Assembly (NCBI GenBank): GCA_029834535.1
Contig: JAQMWT010000057.1
Span: 248,001-312,000, forward strand
Reading direction: 5' to 3'
Source: Chrysophaeum taylorii
Taxonomy: Eukaryota > Sar > Pelagophyceae > Pelagomonadales > Pelagomonadaceae
Length of the DNA: 64,000 bases
Below are positions 17,716-64,000 of the stretch, piece by piece. Each line of letters opens with the position of its first letter. The first letter of the stretch is position 1. Below the pieces are notes generated by a model. The model was not told the origin of the DNA, searched no databases, and saw nothing but the letters and a program-made list of their open reading frames with translations. Both the position numbers and the translations under genes were made by a program.

Positions 17716-17746
<31 letters not shown>

Positions 17747-23213: not shown

Positions 23214-23214
23214 C

Positions 23215-23490
23215 AAACAAACGCCATCCCTCCTACCCCACACACCCACCCACATCCTTCATGCTCCCCACACACACCCCTGACTGTCTTAGCAGTCGGC
23301 ATTTAAAGACAAACAAACGCCCGTCAGGCATATCCCTCCTACCCCTTAAACCCACCCACATCCTTTATGCTCCCCACACACACACCCCTCTTAGCAGTCG
23401 ACATTTAAAGACAAACACCCACCCACATCCTTCAGGCTCCCCACACACAACCCCCTCTTAGCGGTCGACATTTAAAGACAAACAAACACG
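23215..23490. repeat. short tandem repeat, about 80-95 bp units
   Basis: Three units, each with ACCCACCCACATCCTT, ATGCTCCCCACACAC and CTTAGCAGTCGACATTTAAAG. The same sequence occurs inverted at about 20,020-20,100 inside the array, and a diverged copy lies at about 29,335-29,400. Confidence 0.75.
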
Positions 23491-23544
23491 ACTCGGCGAT
23501 GACCCCGACTAGGTCCCGCGTACTTATCTCTGCCCGTTCGAAAT

Positions 23545-30199: not shown

Positions 30200-31249
30200 A
30201 TGGAGGTTGAAGATGAGGCTCGACCAAGGAGCCGTCCGAAGAGAGGTGATGACCTTTACGCTATGGTCGAGGAGGCACGTGGTGGCGTCTCGCTTCAAGC
30301 CCCGGGATCAGTGGCTGCGTTGAGGCTGAGGGGGTGGGTGCGAAACGCGCACCTCGCGGTGGGCGTAGTCCACTTGACTGTGTTGATGGCGCTGATCGTA
30401 TTATGGGGCACGACGAACCCCAACAAGGTCTCTGTACATCTGCTCCAGGAGACGTTTCAGCACAAGGACCCGTCTCGACGGTGCGAGTGTCAGCCTGTTT
30501 CGAGTCTCGAAAGTCTCGGCGTAAGACTCAACGTCTACGCGCTATGCATCACTTTCTCCGTGATGGTCGTGTTCACCCACACGTTTTTCGCGTCGGACGG
30601 ATTCTTCACGGGGATCTACACAGAATGCGTCGACGAAGGGAAGAATCCGTTCCGTTGGTTCGAGTACAGCGTCACGTCGACTTCTATGCTTATCATCGTG
30701 GCCTTGTTGTCTGGCGTCCGACAACGCATGATACTCGTCATGATGGTAGTGGCTAACATAGCCACTATGTTACAGGGCTATGTGATCGAGGCCGCCATCG
30801 CCAACGGTGCCGGCACTCTCGAACGCATCATACCCCTCGTTGCCGGCTGGGGACTCTTCATTTCTTGCTGGTATCCCGTCATGTATTCGTGGTACGAGAC
30901 GCTCGACAGCCTCAACGACATCAAGAGTAAGTGCAAGGGCGTGGACACGTTTAGCGACGATGCAGAACCACCCAGATGGGTTGAAGTGCTCATAGTCGCC
31001 ATATGCGTGATGTTCGTCTACTTTGGCATCGTGTCGTTCGTCCAGGTTTGCCACTCTTTCTACGTCGACGATGTTTCTATAATGCGTGACCGCTTCATCT
31101 TCTATGAAATCGTATACATCACCCTCTCCCTCGTTGTCAAAACCGTCCTCAATGTCTGGGCCATGGCGTCCATCTTCTCCACGAGCACCGGCCTCGCTTG
31201 GGTGCGAGAAAAAGCTGCCGCCGATGGCGAAGAGTGTGTCGGTTACTGA
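30200..31249 (+). CDS. heliorhodopsin
   Basis: A 349-residue seven-helix protein, binding retinal by family knowledge. I start at the Met at 30,200, the last one before a cytoplasm-like charged N-terminus; an in-frame start at 30,110 would add 30 residues. Helix 1 (HLAVGVVHLTVLMALIVLW, 51-69) follows that charged region, consistent with the inverted topology of heliorhodopsins. Helix 3 holds the family block NPFRWFEYSVTSTSMLIIVA (149-168) with the counterion-position Glu155, and helix 7 holds YITLSLVVKTVLNVW (306-320) with the Schiff-base Lys314. Both sites align with model heliorhodopsins. It is longer than bacterial members (about 250-260) because of its N-terminus, a Cys-containing loop after helix 1 and a loop between helices 5 and 6. 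The function, light sensing or enzyme/transport regulation, is not settled for the family. Confidence 0.88.
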   Translation: MEVEDEARPRSRPKRGDDLYAMVEEARGGVSLQAPGSVAALRLRGWVRNAHLAVGVVHLTVLMALIVLWGTTNPNKVSVHLLQETFQHKDPSRRCECQPVSSLESLGVRLNVYALCITFSVMVVFTHTFFASDGFFTGIYTECVDEGKNPFRWFEYSVTSTSMLIIVALLSGVRQRMILVMMVVANIATMLQGYVIEAAIANGAGTLERIIPLVAGWGLFISCWYPVMYSWYETLDSLNDIKSKCKGVDTFSDDAEPPRWVEVLIVAICVMFVYFGIVSFVQVCHSFYVDDVSIMRDRFIFYEIVYITLSLVVKTVLNVWAMASIFSTSTGLAWVREKAAADGEECVGY

Positions 31250-34724: not shown

Positions 34725-34925
34725 CGATGGAGGACGGTGCCTCATGAATCCTGAGCCTTGTGAGGGCATCCGCCCTCCCGGCGTAGGTTGGCACCTATTT
34801 GCCTTCCGGGCGGGCCGGTTGGCAGCCGGAACGTTCGCAGTGGGACGGGGTATGGCCGGGGGGCGCAGACGGAAGGTTATCGACGAGTTGGTTGTCAGTC
34901 ACATCGCGGTCTCCTCGTCGCATGG
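34725..34925. repeat. dispersed SINE/MITE-like repeat, copy 1
   Basis: Aligns with 54,730-54,905 over about 180 bp. Shared blocks include GTTGCGAT, GGCGTAGGTTGGCACC (AGCGTAGGTCGGCACC in copy 2), TTCCGGGCGGGCCGGTTG and TATGGCCGGGGGGCGCAGA. No protein, tRNA-like promoter boxes or clear terminal repeats are seen. 34,926-35,135 is the 5' flank of the next gene. Confidence 0.65.
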
Positions 34926-35135: not shown

Positions 35136-38100
35136 ATGGCACCCTCATCGCGGAGGAAGCGGTCCTCCGAGGCTCCCCCTATGCGTGACCTGCCCGAGGA
35201 CAGCTACATCGGGTGCCGCGTCAAGCACTTCTGGGAGGGCGACGCGCAGTGGTACGAGGGCCGCATCCTGGACCAGGTCGGCGCGCAGACTTACGTCATC
35301 CGGTACGACGACGGCGAGTACCACGAGGTGATCATCGACACCGCCAAAGAGCTCATGCTGTGCGTCCTCATCGCGAGTGGCCGCGTGTGACAAAACCCTC
35401 TCCTTGTTTTCAGGATCGGACGCGGCGTGTACATGGTCAAGCAACCCGGGCACTGCGCCTGGCCGGCGCTCCACTACGAGATGACGGAAGCGGCCGCGCA
35501 GAGCAACAAGGTGCGGGGCTACGACCCGAGCAAGTGCTACGCCATCTTCTTCCAGACGCTGCAGTACGTGTGGATTTCGCGGGCGCTCGGCGGCGCCCCG
35601 GCGATCGCCGAACCGGGCGCGTTCAAGCGGTCGCGGTGTAAGCGGACGGGCGTTCTCGTCGATCATTTTTCGAGTAACGTGCGCGACGACCCAGAGCTGG
35701 CGCGCGTTTTGGAGAAGCCTGGCAAAAAATCGGAGACCCTCGCCGAGGCCATCGATCTGGCCGAGGCCGAGCTCCAGCTACGCGAGGAGCAGCGCGTCAA
35801 GTGGCGCAAGCACAAACCGTTGCCGCCGGGCGTCGTCGTGGTCGAGTCGGACGAGGCTCTCGCGCTGCCGACGGACTTCGAGGAGGTGGAGGCACCGCAG
35901 CTGCAGCAGGAGGAGGAGGAACCCCCAGCGAAGAAGGTGAAACTAAGCAACAAGTGCGCCGCGTGTGGGCGGGCGAACTGCAACGAGGCGACGAACGCGG
36001 CGCGCTGCGACGCGTGTGCCAACATCTATCATCTCGAGTGCTGGGGAGGGCCCGAGCTCAAGAAGCCGCCCTCGACCTCGCAGCGCGGGAAGCGCTGGTT
36101 GTGTGCCGACTGCTTGGCGTGCGATCGGTGCGGCCGCACCCAGCGCGTCTGCGGCCCGGCGAACAAGGTCGCGCGCCCGCGCCTCGACGTCGTCAATCGC
36201 CACGGCGAGTTCTTCCTTCCGAGCGGCTTGCTGCGCTCCAAGGGTACCAAGGTGGCCTTCGCGAGACCCGACGGGAAGGGCTACTTGTGCCGCGAGTGCC
36301 TCGAGGCCTACAGAACAGGCAAGTTGTGCGCGACGTGCCACAGGGAATGGGACGAAGACGAGCCCCGGATGATCAAGTGCGACGGTCCGGGGTGTCGCCT
36401 CTGGGCTCACGCCGAGTGCGACGGCCTCGACGAGGAAGCGTACGATTCGATCGGCAACGGCACGCACCCCGTCTTCGGACTTGAATTCCTCTGTGCCGCG
36501 GGATGTGCCGTCAAGGTCTCGACGCGCCTCATCGCCAAGCTCCAGGAGCAGGATGAACTCCTGCTATTCGCGCGCCCCGTCGACCCAACCATCGCGCCGA
36601 CCTATCTCGACGTCGTCAAACGCCCGATGGACCTCGCGACCATGCTCGCCAAGGCCGAGGCCGGCGAGTATCGCTCGACGCAGATGCTCAGAGACGACAC
36701 CGAGCTCATGTGCGCCAACGCGGTCACCTTCAACCGCGCGGGCGACCGCTTCTGGCGCGAGGCGTGCCGCTTCTTCAACGCTTCGACCAAGATCTTCGAG
36801 TCCCTCGACATCGATCGAACCCCTCAGCAGGCCAACTCCGAGGAAGGTGCGGCCAAGAGGAAGACCGACCAGACCACCTCGAGGAGGCAAGCCCCAAAGA
36901 ATAGTCAACGCCAGGCTTCTCCTGCCCGCACTCCCGCTGCAAACGCCGCAGAGACGACGGCGACGACAGTGACGACGACGATGGCGATGGCGACTGATAC
37001 GACGACAGCGACGGCTACGATGACAGCGACGGCTACGACGACAGCGACGCGGACGGCCGTCAACGGTGTCCCCCAGGCGGGTCCGCTCGCAGTGCCCCCG
37101 CAGCCCAGCCAAGAAGAAACGGCGCCCAAACCCGCGGCGAGCACTGAGCCAGCAGCAGCGGGCCAAGCAGAAAAACAGCTGACGGAAGGCGAAAATGGCG
37201 CCGCCGCCGCCGCCGCCGCCGAGAAGCCTCGAGAGTCGTACATCCAGCGCAAGTCGGTGCGATCTGCACATGCGGACGTGATCGATCGCGTTCGCGAGAA
37301 TTACTTCAGCACGAGGGCCAAGGAAAGGGCGTCACGCGATGCGACCGTGCGCAAGGACGCGCTCGCCGGGACGGCCGTGAAGCGAGTCCAGCGCGTCGAA
37401 CGCGTCCCGTGCCACGATCCAGCGTCGTGCGTTGCCGTCGCCGAGGTCCGCCTCGACAAAGACTCGGCCGCGCGCGTCCACGCGTGGCTCGACATCTGCC
37501 TGGTGTGCGGCTCTGGCGAGGCCGTTTCGGTCACCGACAGCACATATGAGTACCACGGCCCTCCGGGCGGGGAGTTTTTGTTTTGCGTTGATTGCGGCGA
37601 GGCGTTCCACGCGTTCTGCGCGATGGCGCCGATCGCGACCATGGACGCCGCGGCCAAGCTCTCGTGGCGGTGCCCTAACTGCAAGCTTTGTGAGCTGTGC
37701 GGGCGTTGCAAGCCAGAAGACGAGTCGCAGCTTGTGTACTGCGACTTTTGTGACAAGGGCTACCACCTTGATTGCGTCGAGCCGCCACTCGCTGCCGCGC
37801 CGCCGGGCCGATGGATTTGCGGGCTCTGCGTCGACTGCAAGCACTGCGACGCCGCCGGCCAGGACCCGTCGCGAGCGCGCTGGTCCTCGAGGCAGGACGC
37901 CTGCGCCAGCTGTTTGGTCCACGCGAAGACTGTCGACGCGAGTCGCGCGCCCCTTGGCGGCAAGTGCGCCGCGCTTAATGGCTGTCTCGTCGAAGAACAA
38001 CAACTGGGAAACGCTGTGGTGCCCCTCCCTGGGAAGGCGTGCGCGTACTGCGCGGCGAGGTTCCACGACCAATGCGCGCTCGCTTTCTTGCGCGACGACG

Positions 38101-40309
38101 ATTTCGGAGAGCGCGCTTGTTTGCGCTGCGTTGCGCAGCTCGGGAGTTTGGCGTCCGGCGACCCGTTTGTGACTCACTTGGGGGCCGACGATGCGGCGTG
38201 GCGATGCGCGGTCGCGTGCTCGCGTGTGCAGCGCCGCCGGTTGTGTGCCAAGAAGACGGGGGTGACGCTTACGCCGGAACGACGGAGGCGCCCCATCCTT
38301 CGCGGGTGGACCGAGTTTTTCGAATCATGGGAGGGTGCGCCGCGTGCCAAGATGCTCGACGCCGTGTGTCGCGAAGCCCTTGGCGGCGACTGGACAGACA
38401 CTCGCCAGTGCGCTCTGTGCAAAAAGCGAGGTGACTGCGTCGACGCTGGCCGGCTTGTCCCCGTGCATGACAACAACAACTCTTGGGTCCATATCAACTG
38501 CGCGCGCTGGTCCTCAGAGGTCTACGAGGTCGACCGCTCTATGGTCAAGGTGCGCAACGCGATCGCGAGAAGTCGCACGCTCCGGTGCACCAAGTGCGGT
38601 GGCCCGGGCGCCACAATGGGCTGCTGCGATACCTCGTGCCGGACCAACTACCACTTCCGTTGCGGCGCTGCCGCCGGCGCCGTTTGCGTTGACGGTGTTC
38701 GAGTCCTGTGCGCGCGATGCTATGCCAAAGGCTCCGAGCTTCTCAGTAGAGTCTGCGCCCCGGCACCGGCCGCGCGCCAAATGATACCCCCCGCTACCGC
38801 TGCTGCTGAAGACGCGACGCCCGCATCTACCTCTCCGGCACGCGCTGAGCTTTCTGCTGATGATGCTGCTGCAGCTGCCACAGGAGAGGTGCGGCCACCA
38901 GACGTCGCTGCGGTCAACGGGGAGCTTCACAACAACCCTTCTGAGGATACTCCTGGAAACAAGGACGAAGACGACGACGGCGAGAACGGCTCCGTCGAGG
39001 AAGCTCATGGGCTCCATCGGGTGAACTCGGTGCCGGCGAACCTCGAAGAAACCGCCTCACCGATGGACGAGATACCTGGCGATGCTCCCAGCGCACTACC
39101 CTGCGTCCCGTCATCCGACGCTGTCGACGAGGACCCGGCGCCCGCCGTGGCATTATTGCCACCTGACGATTTTGATGATGACTTCGAAGACGACGAGAAC
39201 GCGCCGCGTTCCAGAGGCGACGGAAAAGACAGTGACCCGACGAAACGAATCAGTCGCGTAATCGACAACGTGGGCGACGTGGCAGCTTCGGTCGTCGTGC
39301 CGTCGCAGCTCGATTTTGAGAACGCAGGCTGCAGACACGACCCGTACGAGTACTTCATCAAACGCCGAGCTAAAGAGGTGCTTGCGGCGGCAGCGGCCGC
39401 AGCCGTCGCCGAGGTGCTTGCCATGAAGAAGAAACCCGCGATCAAAAAACCGCGGGCTGCAGTCAGCAAGCCGCCGCCGCTCGAAGAGGTGGAGGTGGAA
39501 GAGATTACGCCAGAACATGCCGAGTGGCTCGACAAGCGCGTCCGCAAGGCTCGGGAACTTGGGGACGTCTTCCGTATCGGCTCGCTCGTCGTGCATGATG
39601 TCGGTCGCATCGCGCATGTCGGATGCCGCTTTCACTGTAGGGACCGGATATTCCCCTTGGGCTACCGCGCTACGCGCATCTTCTGGTCGGCGACGCGACC
39701 CGCGACTCGCGTCGCCTACGTGTGTGAGATTCTTGACGGTGCGGCGCTCGACGACGACGCAGCCGTTTCGGGAAAGTCTCAACAAGGACACCATCCTGTC
39801 TTTCGGGTCACGGCGCTGGACAATCCCGATGCCGTCTTCCAGTCGGTGTGGAACCCCCGCGGGGCCGTTCGAAAGCTCCATCGCGCGGTCGATATGTGCA
39901 ATGCGGCCGCGTTCCGGAGGCGTGAAGACGGAGGACACTATTCGACGCGCCATCACTTTAGAAGTTACGGTCTTGGCGACGACGGTGCTGGCTTCTTTGG
40001 CTTGTCCATTCCGGCTCTGCGCGCGAGAATCGAGGACCTTCCGAACGCCGTAGCGGCCGCTCTCGACATCAAGCCGGCCCACACGAACGGGCCGGTCCCG
40101 GATGAAGAGGAGGACGACGATGGCGATCCCCTGCCTGTCGTCCAACCGAAGCGCTTGAAAGTAGTCCCACCGACGTCATCGCCAGGGCTTTCAGCACCTG
40201 CGCGCGGAACTTCTCCTGCTGCTTCCAGCGTGCTCGTCGTAAAGCAAGAACCCCACGTAATGTGGCAGCAGCAGCAACAGCTGCAGCAGCAGCAGCAGCA
40301 GCAACAGCT

Positions 40310-40353
<44 letters not shown>

Positions 40354-40574
40354 TGCTGCTGCAGCTGCAGCAGCAACAACAGCTGCAGCAGCAACAACGG
40401 CAGCAGCAGCAGCTGCAGCAGCAACAGTTGCAGCAGCAACAGTTGCAGCAGCAACAGTTGCAGCAGCAACAACAGCAGCAACAGTTGCAGCAGCAACAGT
40501 TGCAGCAGCAACAACAGCAGCAGCAGCAACAACGGCAGCAGCAGCAGCTGCAGCAGCAACAGTTGGAGCAGCAA

Positions 40575-40606
<32 letters not shown>

Positions 40607-42103
40607 ACAGTTGCAGCAGCAGCAACAGTTGCAGCAGCAACAACGGCAGCAGCAGCAGCAGCAGATTCAACAATTGCAACAGCAGATGCAGCAACAGCAG
40701 CAGCAGCAGATGCAGATGTTACATCAAGCTGGGTCGCAGCGCCATATGCAACAGCTCCAATTTTTGCAGCAATTGCAGCACCATCAACCGCAGTTGGCTC
40801 AGCCGATGATGATTCCGCGTCCCATGGCTTTGGTAGGCCCGCCTCGCGGTCTGCCGCCGCGTCTGAGTCTTGATCACGGAGCCTTTGCGAACAACGGCAT
40901 CCCGCATATGCTGGTACCCACCACGACGATTCCACCTCCTCAGAGACTGGTACCCGCGCCGCACTCTGCGTTACAGTTGAGGCCGCCAATTTCGGTGGTG
41001 CGGCCGGCCAATGGGCCCAGTCACAACGGCTTGATGACGAGTACTGCGCCGCCTGCCAGAGCGAGTCCCGCGGTGGCGGCACCGGTGCCGGCGGCGCAGA
41101 GAGCACCAACTATCGCGGAGACGAGGCAAACGCGGCGAAAAAGACCGCAGAGCACCGGGGAAAACGGGGATAGCGGTCAACAGGAGGATGCGCGACCTGC
41201 CTCGTCGAAGCGCCAAGCTTCGGGATCTTCGGCGCCGACGAAGACGTTCAAGCCAAGCCGGAGGCGAAAAACCTCGGGCCTCGTCAACGGGTACACGTTC
41301 TGCTATGTCCAACCGTCGGTGGGGGACGTACTAGGTGCCCAACGCGAGGTCGCGCTCCGAGATGCCGATATTAAACCGAATCCGAGTGGGTGCGCGCGCG
41401 CCGAACCGCGAGATACGACCGACGAGGCCGCGAGAGCGCGCATCACGCGATCCCTCGTGCGCGCTGCGAAAGAGCAGCAGAGCGACGACGTTCCCGAGGC
41501 GAGGCAGTCGCAAGCGAAATCTACGACGAGTGGCGACGCTCTTATTTCGTCGCCGTCACCCTTTAGCGGCATCGTGTCTGCGCTCCAGGAGAATCGCGAC
41601 AAATATCGGCGAATGAAGGCACTTCCCATGAGCGCGCGGCTCGAGGTCCGACGCTCGCACATCCACGGCTGGGGCCTTTTTCTGAAGCGTGACGTGCGCA
41701 AGGACGAGTTCATCGTCGAGTACCTGGGCCAGATCGTTCGCCAGGTCGTTGGGGACAAGCGCGAGAAGTACTACGACCAAGCTGGCTTCGGCTCGTGTTA
41801 CCTCTTTCGGCTCGACAACGATCTCATCGTCGATGCGACGCGCCGTGGCAACGTCGGCCGCTTCATCAACCACTGCTGCAAGCCAAACGGTGTGTCTTGT
41901 CGTCCCAATATTCTCGTAACCTCGCCGCCGCAGCGTATGCGCGAGTCGTCAACGTCGAAGCCCAAGTGAAGAAGATAGTCATCATCGCGCTCGTCGATCT
42001 CCGCGCCGGAGACGAGGTCATGTACGATTACAAGTTCCCGATCGAGGACGACAAGGTCCCTTGCTTCTGCGGCGCGCCCAATTGCCGCGGCTCCATGAAC
42101 TAG
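35136..42103 (+). CDS. MLL/trithorax-type histone H3K4 methyltransferase
   Basis: Exons 35,136-35,359, 35,414-41,889 and 41,934-42,103 join to 2,289 residues. Domains by residue: Tudor-like beta-barrel (about 20-75; CRVKHFWEGDAQWYEGRIL, YDDGEYHEV); PHD fingers at about 254-310 and 378-430; bromodomain (about 445-534; LLFARPVD, KRPMDLATM, NAVTFNR); PHDs at about 769-870; extended PHD with its Cys/His series (about 1,072-1,176; CALCKKRGDCV, CARCY); FYRN from about 1,464 (FHCRDRIFPLGYRATRIFWS) and FYRC (PVFRV...); polyglutamine (about 1,691-1,847); SET (about 2,146-2,271; HGWGLF, YLGQIVR, RFINHCCKPNAYARV, YDYKFPIED) and post-SET (CFCGAPNCRG). It should methylate H3K4 at active chromatin as a COMPASS-type catalytic subunit. 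Domain order follows animal MLL rather than plant ATX. The SET cofactor and substrate motifs look intact, and the splice that joins CCKPN to AYARV restores the family sequence. Confidence 0.92.
35360..35413 (+). other. predicted 54-nt intron in the SET-domain gene
   Basis: Donor GTGCGT at 35,360, acceptor TTGTTTTCAG ending 35,413. Splicing joins AKELML to IGRGVYMV in frame and removes the stop at the end of the first frame. Confidence 0.75.
40262..40730 (+). repeat. polyglutamine-coding CAG/CAA tract
   Basis: About 155 codons, almost all CAG or CAA, with regular Leu (CTG/TTG) and occasional Arg (CGG) interruptions. It lies inside the H3K4 methyltransferase between FYRC and SET. The long Leu-, Ala- or Gln-rich frames on the other strand are shadows of it. 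Confidence 0.95.
41890..41933 (+). other. predicted 44-nt intron inside the SET domain
   Basis: Donor GTGTGT at 41,890, acceptor GCCGCCGCAG ending 41,933. Splicing changes HCCKPNGVSC into HCCKPNAYARVVNVE, the conserved SET sequence, and brings the post-SET exon into frame. Confidence 0.88.
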
Positions 42104-51103: not shown

Positions 51104-52861
51104 ATGTTTGTCATCTCCTCGAGCGAGGGCGACGAGAAGCAGAACCGTATCGGTGTGTCGGTGAGCAAGTCGTCGTTGTCGTCGTCATCGTCGTCGATGG
51201 CAAAGAATGGAGGTCCCGCCGTGTCGGGAGTAGGAGGGAAAGGCCGAGGGATGATTGATTTTGCTTCCAATGGTGAGCGTCGCGTTAGCAGCAGCATGGG
51301 TGGTCGCGGTGGCGGCGACACCAACAGCGGGGAGGAGGACGTCGGGCGAACGATGCTGAACTTGCAGACGTCGGGGAAGCACCAGCCGCAGGAGGAGGCG
51401 CGATCGATGTCGTCGTCGCACGAGGCGGCTCGCGCGGACGACGGCGGCTCGGAAGCGGTTTTGGAAGCGTCGCGCGAGGCTACGAGCGATCCGCAGGCGG
51501 CGGCGGGGGGGGTGTCCCCGATGGTGACGACGCGCGACGACGTGGTGTTTGGGGGCATCCGCGGCGCGGGCCATCACGTCGTCGCGGGTCCGGGAGCGGC
51601 GCGCGCGGTCGAGGGCGCGGACGACTGCGACGACGAGGACTACGAGGACGACGACGAGTACGAGGCGGAGAACGACGAGGAGGGGGGATCGGGGAAGCGC
51701 AAGGCCAAGCCGCGACGGTGGACAGATGCCGAGGACGCGGCGTTGTGCCAGGGGGTCGAGCGGTACGGCGAGCGGCGATGGAAGCTGATCGCGGCTGGCG
51801 TCGGGACGCGCGATCACATGCAATGTCTCCAGCGGTGGAAGAAGGTGTTGAAGCGCGGGCTCAACAAGACCCAGTGGACCACCCACGAAGACGCCGTCAT
51901 TCGGCGCGAGCTCGAGGCCCACTTGTACGAGCACGGCGACTCGTCGTCGATCGATTGGGTCGCCGTCGCCGCCAAGCTCCCGCTCCGGAGCGTCAAGGAG
52001 TGCCGCGAGCGGTGGAAGTACTCGCTCAGTTCGTTGGCGGTCCACTGGACACAGAGCACCGACGGCCGCGACGGTCCCTCGTATGCCTACGGGAGCGGCC
52101 TCCAGCCGACGCTCGTGGGACGACACCCCGCGAATCCGACGGCCGGCCTCCGCGGGCCGCCCCATCACCCGCAGCAGCGCCAACCTGGCCCCCCACCCCC
52201 CGCGGGGCCCGCGCCGCGCCTCGACGCCACCGGGGGTGCGCACCCCCTCGACGCCACCGGGTCGCCGTTCCCGTCGTCGGCGCACCTTTCCCCCGGCATG
52301 CAGTCCCCCCCGACGCCCTCGCTCCCTAGCCGCTACGTCAGGCCCCACCATCCCCCGCACTGGCGACCGACCGAGCGCCTCGGCGACGAGATCGAGCGCC
52401 GACTCATCCACGTCGAGTCCGTCATGGAGAGCTTGATGCGCGAGGTTGCCATGTTGCGCCACATCGTCCTCGCGACGCGCTCGGTACGCGACGACGCGAC
52501 CGGAGAACCCCAGCAGCAACAAAACGGTGCCGCCAGCGTCGTCCAACAAGGCGCGACCGAACCCTCCGACGCATCGACCGCCGCGACCCCGGCCAACGGC
52601 GGGCAGCCCCCACAGGCCTCGCCGCAAGACACCTCCGGCCGCCGTTCGCTCGCGCCTCAGCCGCCCGCGCGACCGCCCACGGCCTGGGGACACTACCACG
52701 GCATGGACGTGCAGCCCTCCTTGCCGCTCTCTGCGGGCCACGGCCTCTACGACGACCACGGACCTAGTGCCTACGGCCCGGCCTTCTCAAACTTTCGCCA
52801 TTACGACCACTTCGCGCGACCCCCGCCCCCCGACGGGGCCGAATTCTACCAGCAAAACTGA
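51104..52861 (+). CDS. two-repeat MYB (SANT) transcription factor
   Basis: A 585-residue protein. The N-terminal 200 residues are Ser/Gly-rich and acidic (DDCDDEDYEDDDEYEAENDE) and end in a basic KRKAKPRR, a likely nuclear signal. Two MYB repeats follow: about 205-250 (RRWTDAEDAALCQGVERYG ... LQRWKKVL) and about 257-306 (QWTTHEDAVIRREL ... ECRERWKYSL), each with regularly spaced Trp residues. A Pro-rich region and then a predicted coiled coil (about 425-460; IERRLIHVESVMESLMREVA) suggest dimerisation. The C-terminus is Gln/Pro-rich. It should bind DNA; targets are unknown. I start at 51,104; a downstream Met before AKNGG is an alternative. The long frame on the opposite strand is a shadow. 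Confidence 0.82.
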   Translation: MFVISSSEGDEKQNRIGVSVSKSSLSSSSSSMAKNGGPAVSGVGGKGRGMIDFASNGERRVSSSMGGRGGGDTNSGEEDVGRTMLNLQTSGKHQPQEEARSMSSSHEAARADDGGSEAVLEASREATSDPQAAAGGVSPMVTTRDDVVFGGIRGAGHHVVAGPGAARAVEGADDCDDEDYEDDDEYEAENDEEGGSGKRKAKPRRWTDAEDAALCQGVERYGERRWKLIAAGVGTRDHMQCLQRWKKVLKRGLNKTQWTTHEDAVIRRELEAHLYEHGDSSSIDWVAVAAKLPLRSVKECRERWKYSLSSLAVHWTQSTDGRDGPSYAYGSGLQPTLVGRHPANPTAGLRGPPHHPQQRQPGPPPPAGPAPRLDATGGAHPLDATGSPFPSSAHLSPGMQSPPTPSLPSRYVRPHHPPHWRPTERLGDEIERRLIHVESVMESLMREVAMLRHIVLATRSVRDDATGEPQQQQNGAASVVQQGATEPSDASTAATPANGGQPPQASPQDTSGRRSLAPQPPARPPTAWGHYHGMDVQPSLPLSAGHGLYDDHGPSAYGPAFSNFRHYDHFARPPPPDGAEFYQQN

Positions 52862-54729
52862 GAGATTCGTGCGGACTCTTCTTCTTCTTCTTCTTCTTCG
52901 ATGTGTGACACTTCTTGCTGGACGTTCGCGCCGCTCCGCTCGAACGCGATCTTTTCTTTATCGATCATCTTTTCGTTAATATTTCGTGTATGTATTCCTT
53001 CCTTCTCGGCGTTGCAAATCTGCCTCGGCGCGTCCACTCTCTCTCTCTCGTCGTATCATCCACTCGTTTTGCTTTCGTTTCTTTCGCCCTGTCGCATCCA
53101 ACTCATCAAAGAGCCGCCTCCACGTTTATTCCGGACTCCTGAGATCGCTGCTCCGCCGCTGCGTGTCCGACCGACCGCACACCTGGCGGCTGCGGTTCCC
53201 TGCCACGACGGGCGCATCTCAAAAGACATGGTCAACGCGCGCAAGCTGCGACACACCCTGGTGTTTCGTTTCTCTTTTATTCGAAGCGCAGTCATAGTCG
53301 TCACCACCTTGGGCGTTCTAGAATCCATCATCTTCTACCTTGTCTCGATCTTTGGTAGCCCCGTGCACGCGTGCATATAACGGACTGATGCCGACACCGC
53401 CGCCGCATCGCCTACAATATTATTTACCATTTTTAAATATACACATTCGACGCGCCCGTTGCCGCCTTCTCCTCCTAATCTGGCTCTGATTTTGTATATA
53501 GAGCTCTCTCTTGGGATTTTATTGTTTTGATGATAGAGATCTCTCTTGGAATTTTATTGTTTGATGAGGAAAGGGAAAAAAAAAAACTTTCCGTCTTCAA
53601 GGCGGACGACAGGTCGAGGCTAGATCTTGATCGCCCTCTCCCCCCCAGTCGAGAAAAAATCGCCAGAATGGGATTAAGCATCAATGAGGAGCTCATGACC
53701 AGGCTTCAGCCGTAGCCTGCTTAGTACTTAGCTGAGCCCACTCGACAGTCGGCTGCCGTCGTCTTCCTAACGCGCTGCCGGTGCTTGCCAGCGGCGATCG
53801 GGTCGCTCTGTTTCGAGCGGCAGCAGCGCTTGCACCGTGGGTCTTAGTGTGTTCCCTCGTTGCCCTGGTCGTGGCATCCGGGTGGCGCTCGCGCGTCGAC
53901 GGATTCGACCTGAGCGCTGCGTCTACAGGGGGCGCGTGGATGACCTGGATGTCGGGAACGAAGGCGCGGCGCGAGTGCTGGGACAATGGCTCTCGAGGAG
54001 CAGACGCGGGGGCAAGAATGATAGTGTTGTTTGTGGCCGCCACGGTTATTTATCGAAATATAAATCGTCGTCAGCAGTATTGTGGGCCGGTTCTTCCTTG
54101 TCGACTGAAGCCTAAGCGCTGGTTGCTCGACAATTGGATTTCGGAAGAGCGGCGAAGGGCGAGCTGGCTCGCGGACGGCAGGCCTCTCCTAGTGATCGGG
54201 AGGGCTTGAAGCGAAACGTTGTTGTCCCGGACTATAGACTTTGAATTTGGCGCAAGTGTGGCGATGGTCGAACCAACGTTGAGGATGCCGAAACCGACGT
54301 CAGAGCTGCGAACTCCCCTTGTTTGAAGGCGCCGAGACCGCACGCGTTACTGGCAGCCCCGCCGTGGACGAGGTCAATCCAGCAGGGCTCCGCATGGAGC
54401 AAGCCCGGGCGGCTCTGCTCCCTGCGTCTTCTCGTGGTCGACAACATCGCGCTCCCCGTTATCGTCGCCGTCACGGCGCCGCGATGACGGTCAGTCGGGT
54501 GCGGCATCGCCTTGGAGTCTTTTCCTCGGCTCAAATAAGTGTCCCCGCTTCTCGGCGGAATCCGCCATTCCTTCGCTCGCCCGTGTCACGCTTGTCACTT
54601 TGACTATGCCTTCGTGCGACGCTTTCGCTGCACCACATCCCTGATGATTGGCATGGTCACTTGTTGTGCGTTACCAAACCGCGCCATACAAATTTGCTCA
54701 TCTAAAACCTTACCCGCATCGCAATCCTC
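52862..54729. other. intergenic with unrecognised frames
   Basis: A TCT microsatellite follows the MYB stop (about 52,878-52,899). Plus-strand frames at 52,901-53,380 and 53,781-54,209 are hydrophobic or Arg-rich without recognised domains. A minus-strand frame at 54,232-54,534 contains NACGLGAFKQGEFAAL, similar to the NLCGLGAFDLQEYRKL peptide at about 14,540, so a decayed relative of the 13.6-15.0 kb tract may lie here. Confidence 0.3.
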
Positions 54730-54905
54730 AGTTGCGATTGAGGACGTTGCCTTTGAACCAGCTCCCAGCGTAGGTCGGCACCAGTTCGCCTTTCGGGCGG
54801 GCTGGTTGAAAGGCTGAACCTTCGGAGTGGTACGGGCTATGGCCGGGGGACGCAGAAGGAAACGTTAACGACGAAGTTGGCCGCGAGTCCGAATGTGCGC
54901 GGTCT
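54730..54905. repeat. dispersed SINE/MITE-like repeat, copy 2
   Basis: Relative of 34,725-34,925 in the same orientation, diverged by substitutions and small indels. 54,906-55,430 beyond it holds no recognised gene and may include the 3' terminal repeat of the adjoining retroelement, which I cannot delimit because its partner lies outside the window. Confidence 0.6.
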
Positions 54906-55432
54906 CAAAAACGAGGCGAAGATAGTTCACGTGCGGCCGGGGTCTCAACACAAAACACTCTGCAAATTCCACATACCAACGAAGACATGATATTCCCTCC
55001 CTCAAGGCCGTGACAACTGGCGACAGACCATTAACTAGCCCTCTGATGCCCGGTGACTCGTATGGCGGCACAGAAAAATAACCTTCCCGACCCCCGGGTG
55101 ACAGACAAAGGGGGCACTCACCGACTCGTCCTAGACCTCACTGAACGAGGAAAACACGGACTCGGGGTCGGATATGCTCGCCACACACCTTGCACACGCA
55201 CACCAAGCCTCTCAACAAGATGGAGAGATGGTATATGATAGCAAGAATGCTACAAGAATACTGCAAGAATGCTTCTCACAAGAGAGAGGTATGATTCTGA
55301 AGTATGATGTCACTAGGAAGATAGGGAAAGGCGTCCCGTTGAACGGGTCTCAAGCCTCGAGAGAGGGGGGGTAAGCCTTAGCGGTCAGGAGTTGCCGCCA
55401 CAGGACTCCGCTGGTGAGAACACGAGCTGCCC

Positions 55433-55855
55433 TCAGCGAGTCCGGCGAGAAGCACGAGCCTTGGCTGAATGAGCGTCTCGGGAACGAGTCTTCTTGTAGA
55501 CACGTTCGACGACAGGTTCAGGAACGCGTCCACCACGCAAAGTGAACTTAGGAATCAACGCATCGATCTCATACGGGGCGAAGTCGGTGACACAAGGAGT
55601 GGTACTGTTGTTGACCTTGGTCTTGTCGGTGAAACTGCGACCGTCCACGTCCTTGTATTCCGGCTTAAGCTTGCGAGTAGAGAGATGTGAAGTAGGCTTG
55701 TAATAAGAAACCTTGTCATGGGGACCGAGATCAGCATAGAAATGCAGAGCGACTCGCTCCTTCACAAAACCATAGGGTTCATAAACTTCAGCGACATAAA
55801 TCTTCTTTCGCCAATCGGACCGTTTATTATCCGGAATCCGAAAGATAACGAACAT
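55433..55855 (-). mobile_element. C-terminal extra region of the gypsy-type element
   Basis: About 140 residues after integrase: FVIFRIPDNKRSDWRKKIYV, then ALHFYADLGPHDKVSYYKP and a basic tail. The opening is beta-rich and reads like a chromatin-reader or BAH/Tudor-type module attached to an integrase, by analogy with chromoviruses, but no named domain is certain. Confidence 0.45.
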
Positions 55856-55868
55856 ACCATGCTTGTAA

Positions 55869-58800
55869 TCATCCCGAAAGGTCTCCTTGGGCTTGGGGCA
55901 CAGCTCGATCGACCACTGGAGAAACCATCACAGGGGTAATCTGACTAACATGAACACAACGGCGTTCGGGAGGAGAATCAAGAGACTCAATCCTGTAAGT
56001 GACCGGGGACAAGCGTTCCAAAATAACGAATGGACCGCGCCATTCCGGTCGAAGCTTGTTCTGAAGAAAAGGGATGTAGAGCAGAACATGTGAACCTTCA
56101 TACTCCACATCAACATGGTCCGCATTGTAGGCGAGACGTTGTTTACGAAGAGCCTTCTCGCGAGCTTCGTTCACCGTAGCGGTATAGAACTTCAGCCTCT
56201 CGCGAGTCTCTGCCACAACATCGGAGCGAGTTTTCGGCAGGCGGCGGACATCAAGATCCATGATCGTGTAATCGGTTGGCAATAAAGGCTGTCGGTTAAG
56301 ACGAAGCATGAAAGGTGAGATCTGAGTCCCCGGAATAAATTTGCGATTATTACAGAAAGCAATGTACTCCGCGAATTCGGGCCATTCCGTGATCTTGCGG
56401 TTTTGAAGGCACGCACGGAGGAAAGCCTTGATAAAGCGGTTGACCCTTTCCGCAGGATTAGCCTGAGCATGATACGGAATCGTGGTACTATACCGAACAT
56501 TGAAAAGATGACAAAACTCTTCCATCAACTTGTTGGCGAACTCTTTCCCATTGTCGGTACGAATCCTCTGAGGTAGATAACCTTTGAGTAATATATTCGC
56601 GACAAAAGACTCGAGGATTGACTCAGCAGTCTTATGGTGTAGTACGTCAAGAATCAAGAAATGAGAAAATGGATCAAAAAAAACAATGAGATATGTCTCG
56701 GGACCAGCACTGGGCAAAGGTCCAAACAAATCCATACAAAGGACGACACAATCACCATCATACACCGGTTGCTGAAGCAGACCTGCTCTCTTTGGTTCAG
56801 GCGTACGAGCTTTCTTGCTCACTATGCAACAAGCAATGTAAGCACCCACCTCATTAGACATATGAGGCCACCAAAAACGTTCAAGTATCGACTGCACTGT
56901 ACTTTGACGACCCATATGACCACCATTGAGAGGTGTGTCATGGTACAATCGGATGATGCGCGTCCGTAAAGTTCGGGGTGCGACTATCATCGGGTGCAAG
57001 TCGGGTGCGGCACGGTAGAGAACTCCTTTCACCACTTGATAGCGATAATTGGCTCCGTACCGACGAAGAGAATGGCCCTGAGCCATGCGATAACGAATGT
57101 CCTCGCAAGTAGCATCAGTGATCTGCTCTTTGGCTATCTCTTCCAAAGTCAAATTATCCGGAATCTTGTCGATGTACTCTTGGTAATCATCGGCATCACG
57201 GAAAATACTAGGCTGGGTCTGAAGTCGTTGCTTCTCACGTTGTTTCGTAGCATGAGACGTGACCAATTGCATCGGATCATCGAGGTCTTCCTCCTCTTCC
57301 TCCACAGGCAACTCAGTCGTAACAAACGACGGAATGACATGGCACCCAGGTAAAGGTGCTCCTTCATCATCAACAGAACGAGGGAGTTCTTGGCACACTA
57401 GATACGCGTGGTTCAAGGGTTCACCAAACTCGTCCGTCTCGATGACATGATCTATAGGATTGCGAGAGCGACAGTCAGGGATGCTCATTCCCGGCGACTT
57501 CCCTGGCTTGTAACCCAATTCAGGATCAAAATTGGCGAGCCGCATCGCCCATCGAGCCAACTGCCCAGACGAGTGCTTCGCCTTTCGTAAAAACGTAAAG
57601 TTGCGATGATCTGTTTCAAGGATCGTCTTGTGACCTTCAATATAAGAGCGAAAATGCTCAAGAGAAAGAATAACTGCCAGGAGCTCTAGCCGGCGAGGCT
57701 CATAGTTCCGCATCTCTTTCGGCACAGCTCGGCTCCAATACTCAATTACTCGTTCCTCTCGTGTCACCTTACCGGTTTCGTCCTTGATTTCCACGAGCTG
57801 AAAAAGATACGCACCCAGACCATCCTTGGAAGCATCCGAGCGGATCTGAAAAGGAAGATCGTAGTCAGGATGATAAACTCCACGAGAATCCACCAAAGCT
57901 TCGATGATCGTGTCCCATGCCTTTTGGCACTCAGGCGTCCATTCAAACTTAACGCCTCCAAGACACAATCCCCTAAGCGGCTCCACAATCTTCGAATAAT
58001 TCTTCACATATCGGCGGCAATAGTTGCTCATACCAATGAAAGATCGAATCTGGGTCTTCGGGGACGTATTGGGCAACGTACCAGGAATCGGCATCTGCTG
58101 CAACGCTTCTAACGTCTTGGGATTCGGCTTCAAGCCTTCCGGAGTCGAAACATGTCCCAAAAACTCGATTTCATCCTTGAGGAGGTGGAACTTCGAAGTT
58201 CGTCCACTATATCCTCGCTGTGCTAAATGGCACAACACTTCAATCAAAACTTGTAGATGTCGGTGGAGTTCATCCGATCCCATCATAATATCATCGACAA
58301 ACGCGACCAAGTCCTTATACGTCCATGTGGACAAATCGCTAGCCATCTGCTTACAAAAGAGAGCTCCTGCTGTTTTTATTCCTAGAGGCAAGCGCAAGAA
58401 ACTATGGGCTCCAAGTGGACTAACCATCGTAACAGCGTCCTGAGCAGCGGCGTCCAAACGTAAGTTATGATAACCCCATCGAATATCAATGCACGTCCGC
58501 CAACGGCGCATGGCAATAAAAGCCAAAGCATCATCTTGACGAATATTCGGCCAACTGTCATTGACAAGCTGATCATTGAGCTGACGCAAGTCAACTGCAG
58601 CACGAAAAGCATTCGACGTCCCGGCCTCTGCTCCCTTCTTAGGCAGTATCAGTACAGGGAATCCCCACGGAGAGTTCGCCGGTCGGATGACTCCATCGCG
58701 ACACCACTCAGTGATCTGCTTTCTGACACACTCGAGCTTTGCTGGCGTCAGCCTATAAGGCGTCATCTTGATCGGTCTTGGTTTGCGTCTTAAAATCGTA

Positions 58801-58970
58801 GAGAAACCGGTGGCGAGTCCACGGGTCTCATAATCGGATCAAAGAAAGCCCACGCGTATTGCACGCAGTGGCTCAACATCATCTTCGCATCATCATCCAC
58901 ATGCGGGTTGTCGGGAATTCCCAGATCTCGAACAACCTTTTCAACTTCTTCCTTCATAGGAATTACGACT
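55869..58970 (-). mobile_element. reverse transcriptase, RNase H and integrase region of the gypsy-type element
   Basis: RT shows GVIRPANSPWGFPVLILPKK, AAVDLRQLN, LPLGIKTAGALF and the FVDD box (LVAFVDDIMM). RNase H shows IRSDASKDGLGAYLFQ and ETDHRNFTFL. Integrase shows NGGHMGRQSTV at the zinc-finger position, MDLFGPLP, IRTDNGKEFANKLMEEF and NPAERVNRFIKAFL, the DDE core. These are standard Ty3/gypsy Pol blocks in the standard order. Confidence 0.9.
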
Positions 58971-59068
58971 TTCATCGCATCATTGTCCTTGACGTGCTCG
59001 GGAGTCTGCGGTAACGGTACACTGCCCGCATCGCGCGGCGTATCCTTCCATGGCACATCGAACTTTTC

Positions 59069-61804
59069 TTAGTATTTGAACCTCTCCTCAGGGTGGCTCT
59101 TATTGATCTTTTCACCTTTGACGCGTACATTCGGCTCGCTCCTTACTTTCGGCTCCTGTTCAGGTTCAGGATCCGGCGGAACGTCCACTTTTGATTGTCG
59201 GGGGGGGGCAGCAGAAAAAGCATGAGCCGTCCCCGGCGCATCTGTTGGAAGCGGAAGCATAGGAACTTCTGGCGGTTCCCATTTAGTGGGATCCTGGAGA
59301 TCATCTTTTGACACCCACTTAATGACACGAGTACGCGAATTTAACAGCGGAATCTGTACGTGACGAAAGGTGGTGTCAGAGATTCGCAAATACTGCTCAA
59401 AGGGTCGATCTGTCGGGCTCAACGCGGTCGGCAGGACTTCGCCACTTTGGCGGAAACCTCTGGTCACGGAGTTGTGCAGATCGACTGCTAAAATCGCAAG
59501 AGCATCTGAAGGGACGACAGACGCTAAATGTTTGAACGAATCTGTCTTAGACAAGCTAGCCCAATCATGATCCACCGGCATCGTGAGCAACTCGGCCGTC
59601 ATCTCGAGAGTCAAAGGCTGAGTGTCCGAGCGATGCGGTCCCAAACGAAGAGGAACTCGCGTAACGGTGTAAGCCGTATCTGTTGCTTCTCGGGACGAGC
59701 CAAGATTATTCAGCTGGAGCAGGTGGCGTTCATGAGCATAACCTAAAGCTGCAGCAAATTTTTGTTGCATGTTCACACATGTTTTCGGAGCCTCTTGCAA
59801 ATGCAGTGGGTGACTGGAAGCCAACAATCGCACGCGAGAGCTCATCAGAGTGGGCGTGATATCATGAAAATTGACGACGTACACGTAAGGGTGTAAGCGC
59901 GCTATATACGAAATAATGGACGCCTCCTGTTTAATCAGCCACATCATGAAGCCAACCATTTTGCACAGCTTCATCGTCCAGTTAGTGGCCGTAACACCCC
60001 TGCCAACATCTCTGGATGTCAAGTTGCAGAGTGCTGAATGAACGCAGGGTGGAGACGCTATACACATCGACGATGACCATTCCGTTTCAGGCAAATAAGC
60101 CTTGATCAACCGGAGGGTCAAGTCATATCGTCCGCAGAGCGTGTGCTGAACCACAGGTATCTTCGGAGAATTCTTCTGATGAACCTTGTTGGCAGCTGTT
60201 GAAGAGTCAATAGCAAGGGCGACTCGAAACGACGTCCCGCACAACTCGTTCGCTCGTTGCAGTCCTAAAGTACTTCCTCCGGCGCCGCTAAAGAGCATCA
60301 CAACCTTGCGATACGTGATCGGCACCCAGTGGACCTTTTCAAACCTTCGGCGAATCTCGCCTTCTGTAACTTCTCGGCATTTCTTTTCCTCCTCGTCAGT
60401 TCGTCGGTCGAAATCGTCGTTACCGAGCGATTCTTGACGAGAATTCTTCTTCTTATCGGCAGAAGGAGACGCCTTCTGCACTGAGCTCAAAAGCATCGGT
60501 TCGGGAGCCGCATCGCCTTGAGTCAGATGGCTTGCGACCGAAACAGTGAATGATAGGTTAGCCTTGTTAGATTCGGCTTCACCATCCTTCGTTAAATCGT
60601 CGACCGTCTCAGCATTCAGCTCGTCATCAAAACGAACAATATCGCCCAAAGCAAGGACTTCACCTTGAGTAATCACGGTCGGCACATCCTGGGTAGAGGA
60701 TATCGCCACTCGAGCTGCGAACTTATCATGATCCTCAGGAGAAGAACACATTCCATCGACTACCCCGAGTTGCTCGTACCCAGAGGACGTAGCAACGAAA
60801 ATTTGCCCAGTTTCCACGGGCTCTGAAAGAGCGACTGGCACGCAGTAGGTGCGCCCAGGCTCGACCTTCATCGTGCGTGCAGCATAGGCTATCACTTCAT
60901 AGGCATCGCTGTTCGAACTTTGAGAAGGCGTAACGGGAGGGACTCCCCAAGTCGTCGAAGCTCCCGCTCGTTTCTGCGGTGGACGCCGGAGGTCTTCAAT
61001 CTTGCACAAGCGAGCGTAGACTCGGTTCTCAACTGTGCTCATGCTCTGTTGCATCGCATGTTGCTGTTGCCCATAAACCTGAACTACCACGGGATAGCTC
61101 TCGTCATAAGTTGTTCTGAACGTCAAAATCGTAGAATCGACTCGTCGGTCCTGCACCTTCAACTTCTTGCGCCCATAAGCGACTTGTGTGCGTAGAAACG
61201 CAATGCGATTCCGCGGGTAGTCCACTATGGCTCCCAACACCCGAATATCGCGCGCTCCCAGCAAAAATAGATGATTAGTATCGGCCACAATAGCAACAAC
61301 TGGAACGGCGACGTCGTCCGCAAGCGCAATCCGCAATGCGACCCATTTGTGGATAGTCGTCTTGTTCAATCTTGACCCGTACAGGGTGCGCTCGACTGCA
61401 AGATTGCCCCGGTCAAGGATGATGCTATCCTTTTCCAGTTTTTCAACCATCCCACGACAAATATAGGAGACATCAGCCATTCCATCCACGCCTAAAGGCG
61501 TTGCAAACTTCGGCCCGTCTCGTCGTCTATAAATATGACCAACTATGAACGTAAGTGTATCAGGGTCCAGGCAACCGATGGTGATGAGGTCTTGCTCAAT
61601 CTTTTCCCCATCGCTCGGCGACAGTGCAGTGTGATGATATCGTATCTCCGGTTTCGCATCGCCCGGCATCTGCATCGTCACCGCTGCTATATCTGGCGTT
61701 CGACATCTCGCCGCTGAATCTATATTGGCGCTCGCCGCTTCGGCTGCTTCCTCATTCCCCAGTTTCGCTGACAACAAATTCTGACACTCTTCAATCGGAG
61801 GCAC
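59069..61804 (-). mobile_element. protease and DNA cytosine-methyltransferase-like region of the gypsy-type element
   Basis: The first 200 residues resemble a retropepsin: TPLGVDGMADVSYI at the active-site position and LLGARDIRVLGAIVDYPRN as the flap-side LLGxDxL block. From about residue 500 (near 60,307) a C5-cytosine DNA methyltransferase fold is visible: motif I VVMLFSGAGGSTLGLQ (501-516), an AIDSS strand where motif II lies, motif IV CIASPPC (582-588) with the catalytic-type Pro-Cys pair, and an SSRVRLLASS block like motif VIII, ending by about residue 790 (near 59,440). Cytosine methyltransferases inside retrotransposons have been reported in dinoflagellates and in the charophyte Klebsormidium. 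Whether this copy acts cannot be judged here. Confidence 0.82.
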
Positions 61805-62114
61805 ATATACTTCCTCCTTTATCTCTTCTGGCTATCGTCGTTTCTCGTCCATCAAATCGGACATTCCCGTCAACTTCTCCTCCATCGGCGCCGCTGTGGT
61901 CTGCTCTGCTGCGACCAAAACGGTATCGGCTAAAACATCGGCTAAAACGGGCTCGACATCGGCTAAAACGGGCTCGGGGGGAAAAGAAGACGTCGTCCCC
62001 GACGTCAACTCAAAAGGCCTAACGTCATCATCGTGAACTGCCCTGCAAGACATGCATGTGGTATGTTGCTCCTGTTGCAAACGATAGCTGCTCGTCACAG
62101 CGACATCGGCAACA

Positions 62115-64000
62115 TCATCGGAGACTCGGGCGGGGCGCGCCGTCGGGTAAAAGACAACCCCCGACAATGGCGGCGCGTCGGCCGTCGCATAAAGATTGGA
62201 ACGCGAAAGTTGCGCTCGAATGTCCCGAACTATCCCGATATCTGCCTCCGTCATATTCGTCATCGTAATGTCGATGACGTCGGCGCCGGCGCGAATTGCG
62301 ACTAGAGCTCCGGTGACGGCGGGGACTCGGGCTGCTTTGAGGAGTATTGGCTTTTCGATCAGGGCTCTGGCTTCGATGTCGTCGCGACGATCGTCTAGAA
62401 GGTGATCGTCCGTCTCGCTGTCGCGTAGAAAACGACGTAGTATCCTTGATGTCTCTGACCTCGCTCACCATGGTCGCCATTGTGGTTCCAAGATCGGAGA
62501 GGGCTGTTTGAATTTCATTAGAAGGCTCCGATCCGCGCGTGGCGTTCGCATGAGATGCATCATCACGCTTCGCCCAATCGGAGCGCGATATGGGTTGCTT
62601 CTTCTGCTTACGAATACGCTTCCACATCGCACAGTAGTAACGATCCGGATCGCGGTTGCAAACCACGCGATTTCCGTGTTCATCTTCATCGTGGGTGGTC
62701 CAGAAGAACCCACAGTGCGGGCACGTCCTCTTGCCCCACAAAAAAGGATCTCGTAAGATCATCTGATCCGCATTCCCAGACGGCCAATCCGCATCTTGCT
62801 TGGCTTGTTGATCGGAGGCCATAGCTCGACCTCCCCGCCCTCGCGGCGGTTTATTCGATTTCGGATTAGGAGGGCCTTGGTCCTTCTCCTCCTCCATCAA
62901 CTTTCGTATGTCGTTCTCGAGTCGCGTGATAAGCGCCACCATCGACTTAAAAGTCAAGTAACTATCAGGATGTCCGCTCCTCATAGTCCGCACACGGGTC
63001 CTCAACTCATTGGATGTCAATCCACGGATAAGCTGGTCGAGGATATCGACATCATCCATTGTGCGGCTGGACACGGAACAAAACTCCAAGGCTTCTGATT
63101 GGAATTTAGTACAATACGTCTGGACGTGCCGCTCCCCTGACTTCTTCGGAACTGAAGCCTGGGTGACCTTCCGCAGCTTGTCGAGCAGCTCCTGCTGCGT
63201 GCTCGGAGGTCGGCAAGTCGATCTAAAATAATCCAGAATTTTATCACAATACGTCTTATTAAGACGACGGATGCGACGAACCGAGGCTCCATGCTCTTCA
63301 TCGTCAGTATCCAATTTCAAGTAAAACGACGGACCGTGCGGTAGCTCATCGCAGAGCTCCTCGTATTTCTGCAAGTGTTCCTCAAAAATTGGTGCAACGG
63401 TGTCCCGTAGATGCACAGGTAGTAGGTAACGTAATTTCTCGACCGAGTAATGGTCATCTGCTAAAGTATGCATCATCGCCGCCGAATCCAAATTGAATTG
63501 CCGTTGGTCTCGGCCGTCGATGACGAGTTTGAAGTTGTCAGGCTTCAAACTGGAGGTGGGTCGACGGGATCGGCTCAAGTTGCCCTTTTCGAAGGCGTCC
63601 GCAACCGTCTGCGATATTCCCCGCGATAATTCCCGTAAAATTTTCGTACCTTCATTCTCAACTTCCGCCCTACCCTCAGTCTCCGTATCGACTCGGGGCG
63701 GAGGTTCATTCCCCGTTTCAGTGTTCCTTTCCGGTTCAGACGGCCTCACGGGCGTTTCCGGTTCGGGTCGACTCACGGGTCGTTCGCGGCTACTCTCCCG
63801 ACGCGTACGTTCGGCTAACAATTCGTCTCGTTCACGACGAAGTCTTTCAACCTCTTCACGTAGGGTCTTCGAGGTCTCAGTCTCTTGCTGCAAAGCATCA
63901 ATGAGCATATCAGCTTCTCGTCGAGCCGCTTCCTCTTTCGCTTCAGCCCTTTCACGACCAAAGAGCTCAGCTAATCGTTCATTTTCGCGACGTCTCCGCT
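62115..64000 (-). mobile_element. gag region of the gypsy-type element
   Basis: A coiled-coil N-terminus rich in Glu/Arg (KTLREEVERLRRERDEL) continues past the window edge. A gag-like helical core follows (YLLPVHLRDTVAPIFEEHL, ILDQLIRGLTSNELRTRVR), then a C..C..H type block around CPHCGFFW, and a basic Arg/Ser-rich tail (RRHRSSSRNSRRRRRH) probably binding nucleic acid. Confidence 0.75.

Follow-up and report, generated by a model that had tools for sequence, protein, structure and literature searches.

Retrotransposons that carry a DNA methyltransferase have been described in several lineages. In de Mendoza 2018 (PMC5890265), the consulted sections report LINE and DIRS elements of Symbiodinium that bear a DNMT and, in Klebsormidium nitens, KnitGypsy-Dnmt3, an LTR Gypsy element with a DNMT3 domain in its Pol ORF. 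KnitGypsy-Dnmt3 is reported there to have conserved key residues, a Ka/Ks below 0.2 between copies and repeats arranged as in DIRS elements, and the same sections suggest self-methylation of the cDNA for DNMT-bearing retrotransposons (PMC5890265). A 2025 paper (PMC12344493) cites DNMT-bearing retroelements; the families named in the sections consulted are LTR Copia and DIRS. For Ty3/Gypsy and DIRS elements that encode DAM and DCM, another paper, citing others and lumping both enzymes together, names stramenopiles, red and green algae and charophytes, as far as its consulted sections go (PMC6338049). Within the sections covered of the open-licence literature searched, no Gypsy-borne DCM outside charophytes was described by name. 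Gypsy-borne methyltransferases are already known as a kind, and retroelements with working versions are known too. The precedents in dinoflagellates and Klebsormidium that an earlier note on the present DNA had named agree with the Symbiodinium LINE and DIRS carriers and the Klebsormidium Gypsy carrier in the consulted part of PMC5890265.

The element described here was found in the window, the whole stretch of 64,000 nucleotides of Chrysophaeum taylorii DNA that was analysed. It lies on the minus strand and extends past the right end of the window. The following parts were assigned to it:

62118-63998, minus strand: gag-like ORF of 627 aa, open at the window end; called gag by its position and basic C-terminus only
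61835-62464, minus strand: ORF in a shifted frame that links gag to the next ORF; ends at an in-frame stop (61832-61834)
59072-61831, minus strand: 920-codon ORF with the protease-like stretch, the linker and the DCM-derived domain; from the open frame and codon score
61187-61594, minus strand: protease-like stretch, DGMADVSYI ... LFLLGARDIRVLGA; recognised by eye only
60572-60934, minus strand: linker stretch resembling the region between protease and reverse transcriptase of Ty3/gypsy Pol; by eye
59069-59071, minus strand: in-frame stop after the 920-codon ORF
58793-59068, minus strand: pre-RT segment, in the frame of the 920-codon ORF and following the stop at 59069-59071
55872-58838, minus strand: Pol with reverse transcriptase, RNase H and integrase, in a frame changed relative to 58793-61831; from Pfam and the Ty3 match
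55436-55927, minus strand: C-terminal Pol extension, after a further frame change

In Pol, the Pfam models RVT_1, RT_RNaseH, RT_RNaseH_2, Integrase_H2C2, rve and Integrase_p58_C were all matched above their cut-offs, with reverse transcriptase, RNase H and integrase in the Ty3/gypsy order, and the best solved relative in the PDB was Ty3 Gag-Pol (E 6e-68). By eye, the integrase zinc-binding region (56811-56834, minus strand) reads ACCIVSKK where a CxxC pair is expected. Pfam searches gave no match for the pre-RT segment (58793-59068) or the C-terminal Pol extension (55436-55927), and none above the cut-off for the gag-like ORF (62118-63998). For the protease-like stretch, no protease was matched in Pfam, and the PDB search with 61142-61651 returned no match at E values up to 10. 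The putative active site of this stretch (61460-61495, minus strand), judged by eye, has DGM in place of D[TS]G. Catalytic residues may have been lost in both the protease and the methyltransferase, while the reverse transcriptase keeps FVDD.

The coding frames were evaluated with a codon model trained on Pol (RT-RH-IN). The frame given above was the best of six in all nine other element segments tested. It scored 0.4 to 26.5 there, whereas the best wrong frame scored -17.8 to 7.5; a host flank scored at most -17.4 in all six frames. At 61835-62300 the model favoured the shifted frame (7.4, compared with at most -16.4 elsewhere), the pre-RT segment (58840-59068) scored 16.2 in its own frame against at most -6.5 in the others, and the Pol extension (55436-55900) scored 26.5 against at most -2.4 in the other five. 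The 920-codon ORF scored best in its own frame in five of five segments tested, narrowly so in two (5.6 versus 4.0 and 8.7 versus 7.5), and when it was divided into 15 blocks of 60 codons, its frame outscored the other two of the same strand in 14. The coding frame of the linker stretch (60572-60934) was also backed by the model. GC content was 49-54% in the element segments compared with 58% in the rest of the window.

This copy of the element is broken by two in-frame stops and three frame changes. The LTR search found no direct or inverted repeat of at least 30 bases in 52000-64000, and the 5' end of the element lies beyond 64000. The 3' LTR could not be delimited because its partner would lie beyond 64000 as well. 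A 119-bp direct match with 82% identity joins 34775-34891 and 54762-54880, the second just beyond the 3' end of the Ty3-type element. Scans requiring exact short peptides found no relatives in viral contigs (DCM segment and Pol) or genome contigs (Pol), in sets of mostly prokaryotic and viral DNA that say little about eukaryotic copies.

Several other features were observed in the window. On the plus strand, a 381-aa ORF (30104-31246) matches heliorhodopsin (PF18761, E 2.5e-24) and contains SLVVK, which we take to fit the SxxxK retinal-lysine motif. A 2192-aa ORF (35391-41966, plus strand) with a bromodomain, four PHD stretches, FYRN and SET corresponds to a Trithorax-like histone methyltransferase, and a long glutamine-rich tract was noted in it by eye. 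This neighbour of the element indicates a eukaryotic host. A block of repeated units at 15600-23600 accounts for 91 of the 96 self-matches of the window longer than 60 bp; these are 78-99% identical, both direct and inverted. A 75-bp direct repeat with 97% identity (4056-4130 and 8665-8739), possibly the remains of LTRs, flanks copia-like remnants recognised by eye (4304-7663, minus strand), of which 4307-5221 had no Pfam match.

The DCM-derived domain and its motifs were placed as follows:

59375-60355, minus strand: DCM-derived domain, aa 493-819 of the 920-codon ORF; from a sub-cut-off Pfam score, PHROGs, our own profile, the motif chain and the predicted model
60260-60304, minus strand: motif I, VVMLFSGAGGSTLGL; from our own DCM profile
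60044-60055, minus strand: motif IV, SPPC with the catalytic cysteine (aa 596); from our own DCM profile
59861-59899, minus strand: place expected for motif VI, RLHPYVYVVNFHD; ENV replaced by NFH in the motif chain and by DIT in alignment A3
59822-59842, minus strand: SSRVRLL, probably not motif VIII; favoured by the first block test and disfavoured by the second
59651-59749, minus strand: candidate motif VII/VIII remnant, ALGYAHERHLLQLNNLGSSREATDTAYTVTRVP, in which PQxRxR would read SSREATD
59483-59623, minus strand: candidate motif IX and X remnants, TQPLTLEMTAELLTMPVDHD and SFKHLASVVPSDALAILAV; from the motif chain and spacing

As the earlier note had described, FSGAGG (60275-60292), SPPC (60044-60055) and SSRVRLL (59822-59842) follow each other in this order in one minus-strand ORF, upstream of the Ty3-like Pol. 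FSGAGG is present as the AdoMet-binding motif I (FxGxGG), and its spacing of 83 to motif IV lies within that of the references (median 74, range 63-95). Our own profile was built from 93 canonical DCMs picked for FxGxGG, PC and ENV. It matched aa 509-597, which cover motifs I to IV only, with 40.9 bits (E 1.2e-11); the highest control scores were 3.3 bits (1000 shuffles) and 4.0 bits (the 573 other window ORFs of at least 60 codons). From motif I to motif IV the DCM-derived origin is demonstrated at the level of sequence, because the profile score stands far above both the shuffles and the window ORFs.

Three PHROGs families, each a DNA methyltransferase, were matched with E values of 4.8e-7, 5.9e-5 and 0.017. 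Pfam PF00145 gave 17.7 bits with the whole ORF and 21.5 bits with the segment, both under the curated cut-off of 22, and the NCBIfam search gave no match. In a single-sequence search of the PDB, five matches were returned (E 0.64 to 1.1), headed by an unrelated enoyl-CoA hydratase (0.64), with three DNMT2 chains next (0.66, 0.75 and 0.83) and a kinase receptor also included. Methyltransferases made up 16 of the 20 tblastn matches listed in plasmid records (each weak, best E 0.01) and 13 of the 20 listed in phage records (weak, best E 0.05, some phages appearing twice). In alignment A2, neither PPC nor ENV was present in a plasmid protein from Paenibacillus (L019:1492-2475) whose annotation is DNA cytosine methyltransferase.

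The comparison with DCM profiles that the earlier note had proposed was split, with significant matches to PHROGs and our own profile (best E values 4.8e-7 and 1.2e-11), a score under the cut-off in Pfam and nothing in NCBIfam. The lack of a significant match, which that note had named as a refutation, holds for the Pfam cut-off but not for PHROGs or our own profile. Its placement of a DCM-like domain in a Ty3/gypsy element agrees with the motif I-IV homology and the Pol match (E 6e-68), with the protease part of that statement standing by eye only. DNMT3 enzymes have a motif IV with a single proline, SPC. By this criterion the SPPC of the present domain speaks against DNMT3 ancestry, and its motif IV is apparently of a non-DNMT3 type.

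The second half of the domain is more divergent: HMMER found nothing significant after motif IV, and 108 of 2000 shuffles outscored the query there. Ordered motif blocks placed motif VII/VIII at aa 694-727, motif IX at aa 737-756 and motif X at aa 765-783. The chain of VII/VIII, IX and X scored 16.9 against a shuffle maximum of 10.9 (Z 4.6), and the chain with motif VI added scored 14.2 against 10.4; each was reached by 0 of 1000 shuffles, a count that is favourable since block boundaries and smoothing were re-chosen between the two block tests, the first version being unsmoothed and the second smoothed with wider blocks. The IX-X pair alone was reached by 4 of 1000 shuffles, and the single blocks had p values of 0.035 (VIII), 0.027 (IX) and 0.178 (X, not significant). 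In the first block test motif VIII had been put at SSRVRLL, with p 0.073 alone and the chain reached by 2 of 300 shuffles. In the second, aa 694-727 was better than SSRVRLL as motif VIII (p 0.035 versus 0.211), and we favour this placement because the GY of motif VII agrees and MAFFT puts the segment alike. The VIII-like reading of SSRVRLL in the earlier note was thus shared by the first block test and lost to aa 694-727 in the second.

The two placements differ in what would be left of QxRxR. The better-scoring one, SSREATD, lacks the Q and the arginines, whereas SSRVRLL keeps RxR without the Q. With the favoured placement, GNAVPP reads ASVVPS and the IX-X spacing of 29 is ordinary (reference median 28, range 25-246), while the spacings IV-VI (58, references 37-58) and VI-VIII (60, references 37-54) are odd. 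With SSRVRLL as motif VIII, the IV-VIII spacing of 67 falls below the references, which start from 74. The target-recognition region would have 9 residues on the favoured placement, compared with 69-174 in the 93 references, and with SSRVRLL there would be 78 residues from VIII to IX compared with 87-192. Whichever placement is taken, none of the 93 references has so short a region.

From SPPC to SSRVRLL, motif VI, the ENV with the catalytic Glu, was absent in all three frames of the minus strand; the best motif VI block there scored -10.8 and the reference minimum is 15.9, and the second block test did not find the motif as a block by itself. Alignment A3 has 56 columns in which 80% or more of the 43 references agree. 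Up to aa 600 the domain keeps 12 of 21 such columns and beyond that point 11 of 35, and other residues stand in place of E, N and V of ENV and of the P, the Q and the two arginines of PQxRxR. On either motif VIII placement, ENV is demonstrably gone from the predicted protein. That the second half is also DCM-derived is supported but not certain, the evidence being weaker than for the first half, and the same strength applies to the view that QxRxR and almost the whole target-recognition region are lost.

AlphaFold with the single sequence gave no usable model (pLDDT 34). When guided by an alignment of 43 DCMs it gave a model with pLDDT 74 and pTM 0.74, in which residues 219-242, around motif VIII, had pLDDT below 50. 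In Foldseek with this model, the best 50 of 118 matches (E at most 0.001) were all C5-methyltransferases, with DNMT2 first (E 2.6e-7); TM by query length was 0.34-0.54 among the matches listed. Since the DCM alignment imposes part of the fold, the model is partly circular and counts only as compatible with a DCM fold.

The DCM-derived segment has no stops over 327 codons. When 20 DCM genes were mutated at random in 25 runs each, until equally few conserved residues were left, the mean was 9.0 stops, and 0 of the 500 runs had none. As the simulated decay was never free of stops and the segment is, the divergence most likely arose while the frame stayed open. An open frame is no proof of function, because the segment lies upstream of the reverse transcriptase and stops in it would silence the latter. 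At 1.20, the CpG observed/expected ratio of the element compares with 1.24 elsewhere in the window; CpG is thus not depleted and no trace of methylation-driven decay is seen, although a young copy could look alike.

The domain is most likely inactive as a methylase, because ENV is absent, QxRxR appears lost and the target-recognition region would have 9 residues. It was accordingly filed as a DCM-derived domain and not as a methyltransferase, since some defining features of a C5-methyltransferase were not found in it. The earlier note had considered an element that can methylate DNA; the absence of ENV, the target-recognition region, short on either placement, and the undepleted CpG speak against this.

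Taken together, the locus is probably a disabled Ty3/gypsy copy from a lineage that captured a C5-cytosine methyltransferase, the remains of which it still carries in frame before the reverse transcriptase. The capture would have put the enzyme into the polyprotein just upstream of the reverse transcriptase. The captured enzyme would then have lost catalysis, so that the domain no longer methylates DNA, and its frame would have been kept open at least by its position upstream of the reverse transcriptase in the polyprotein. At most, the domain may act as a spacer or as a module that binds AdoMet or nucleic acid; the parts that survive best in it are motif I and the PPC loop. Methylation of the cDNA of the element by the domain is unlikely. 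This reading is drawn from one copy, and other copies may carry an intact domain.

A special case of this reading, which we regard as tentative, is that the remains are a pseudo-methyltransferase under selection that binds AdoMet, cDNA, RNA or chromatin while the element retrotransposes or integrates. The frame open through deep divergence, the codon usage matching the coding frame of the element and the better preservation of the motif I-IV half are consistent with it. The position upstream of the reverse transcriptase, however, suffices to keep the frame, and a single copy yields no dN/dS.

Alternatively, the DCM of the element family might be active and methylate the family's own cDNA, in the manner proposed for SymbioDIRS-Dnmt3, with the motifs lost in the present copy only. 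Motif I and PPC are intact and this copy is broken elsewhere as well; in the consulted part of PMC5890265, retrotransposon DNMTs are under purifying selection and some are active in yeast. Decay of a single copy should nevertheless have left stops, as it did in every one of the 500 simulations, and the target-recognition region is short although its frame is unbroken. CpG is not depleted either, though a young copy would show no depletion. We therefore consider an active family unlikely.

A chance resemblance to DCMs is very improbable: the Pfam score under the cut-off, the empty NCBIfam search and the single-sequence PDB E values of 0.64 or worse would fit it, but our own profile with its shuffle and ORF controls contradicts it, as do the PHROGs matches and the tblastn lists rich in methyltransferases. 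It is equally hard to credit that an assembly error, which the earlier note had named as a possible refutation, fused a DCM-like locus to a Ty3 Pol at the stop and frame change between the DCM segment and the reverse transcriptase, since a single 920-codon frame holds both the protease-like and the DCM stretch and continues past the stop into the pre-RT segment, the GC content sets all element segments apart from the rest of the window and the codon usage matches that of the reverse transcriptase.

The preferred reading, a disabled copy with the remains of a captured methyltransferase, can be extended to a more specific and rather doubtful proposal. In it, a Ty3/gypsy lineage beyond the known carriers would have captured a PPC-type (non-DNMT3) C5-methyltransferase that is now a selected, non-catalytic part of Pol binding AdoMet, nucleic acid or chromatin. 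If other copies confirm the locus, gypsy elements would have captured a DNA methyltransferase once more, this time apparently one of another type. The locus would also be a case in which catalysis was lost and the domain retained, which separates self-methylation of cDNA from other reasons to carry the fold.

Compared with canonical C5-methyltransferases (PF00145; M.HhaI, DNMT1, DNMT2), the present domain has motifs I and IV and their spacing in common; it is without ENV, and its QxRxR and target-recognition region appear lost or shortened. With Ty3 Gag-Pol the element shares the order of reverse transcriptase, RNase H and integrase, but it adds a DCM-derived domain before the reverse transcriptase and has, by eye, a protease site that is not D[TS]G. 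SymbioDIRS-Dnmt3 and SymbioLINE-Dnmt are likewise retrotransposons with a captured DNMT; according to the consulted sections of PMC5890265 they have DIRS and LINE backbones and conserved key DNMT residues, whereas the present element is of Ty3 type with an integrase and appears to have lost the DNMT residues. KnitGypsy-Dnmt3, as described in those sections, is alike in being an LTR Gypsy element whose Pol polyprotein ORF includes a C5-methyltransferase domain. It differs in being DNMT3-derived with conserved key residues, while the present element has SPPC as motif IV, has no ENV and is represented by one broken copy.
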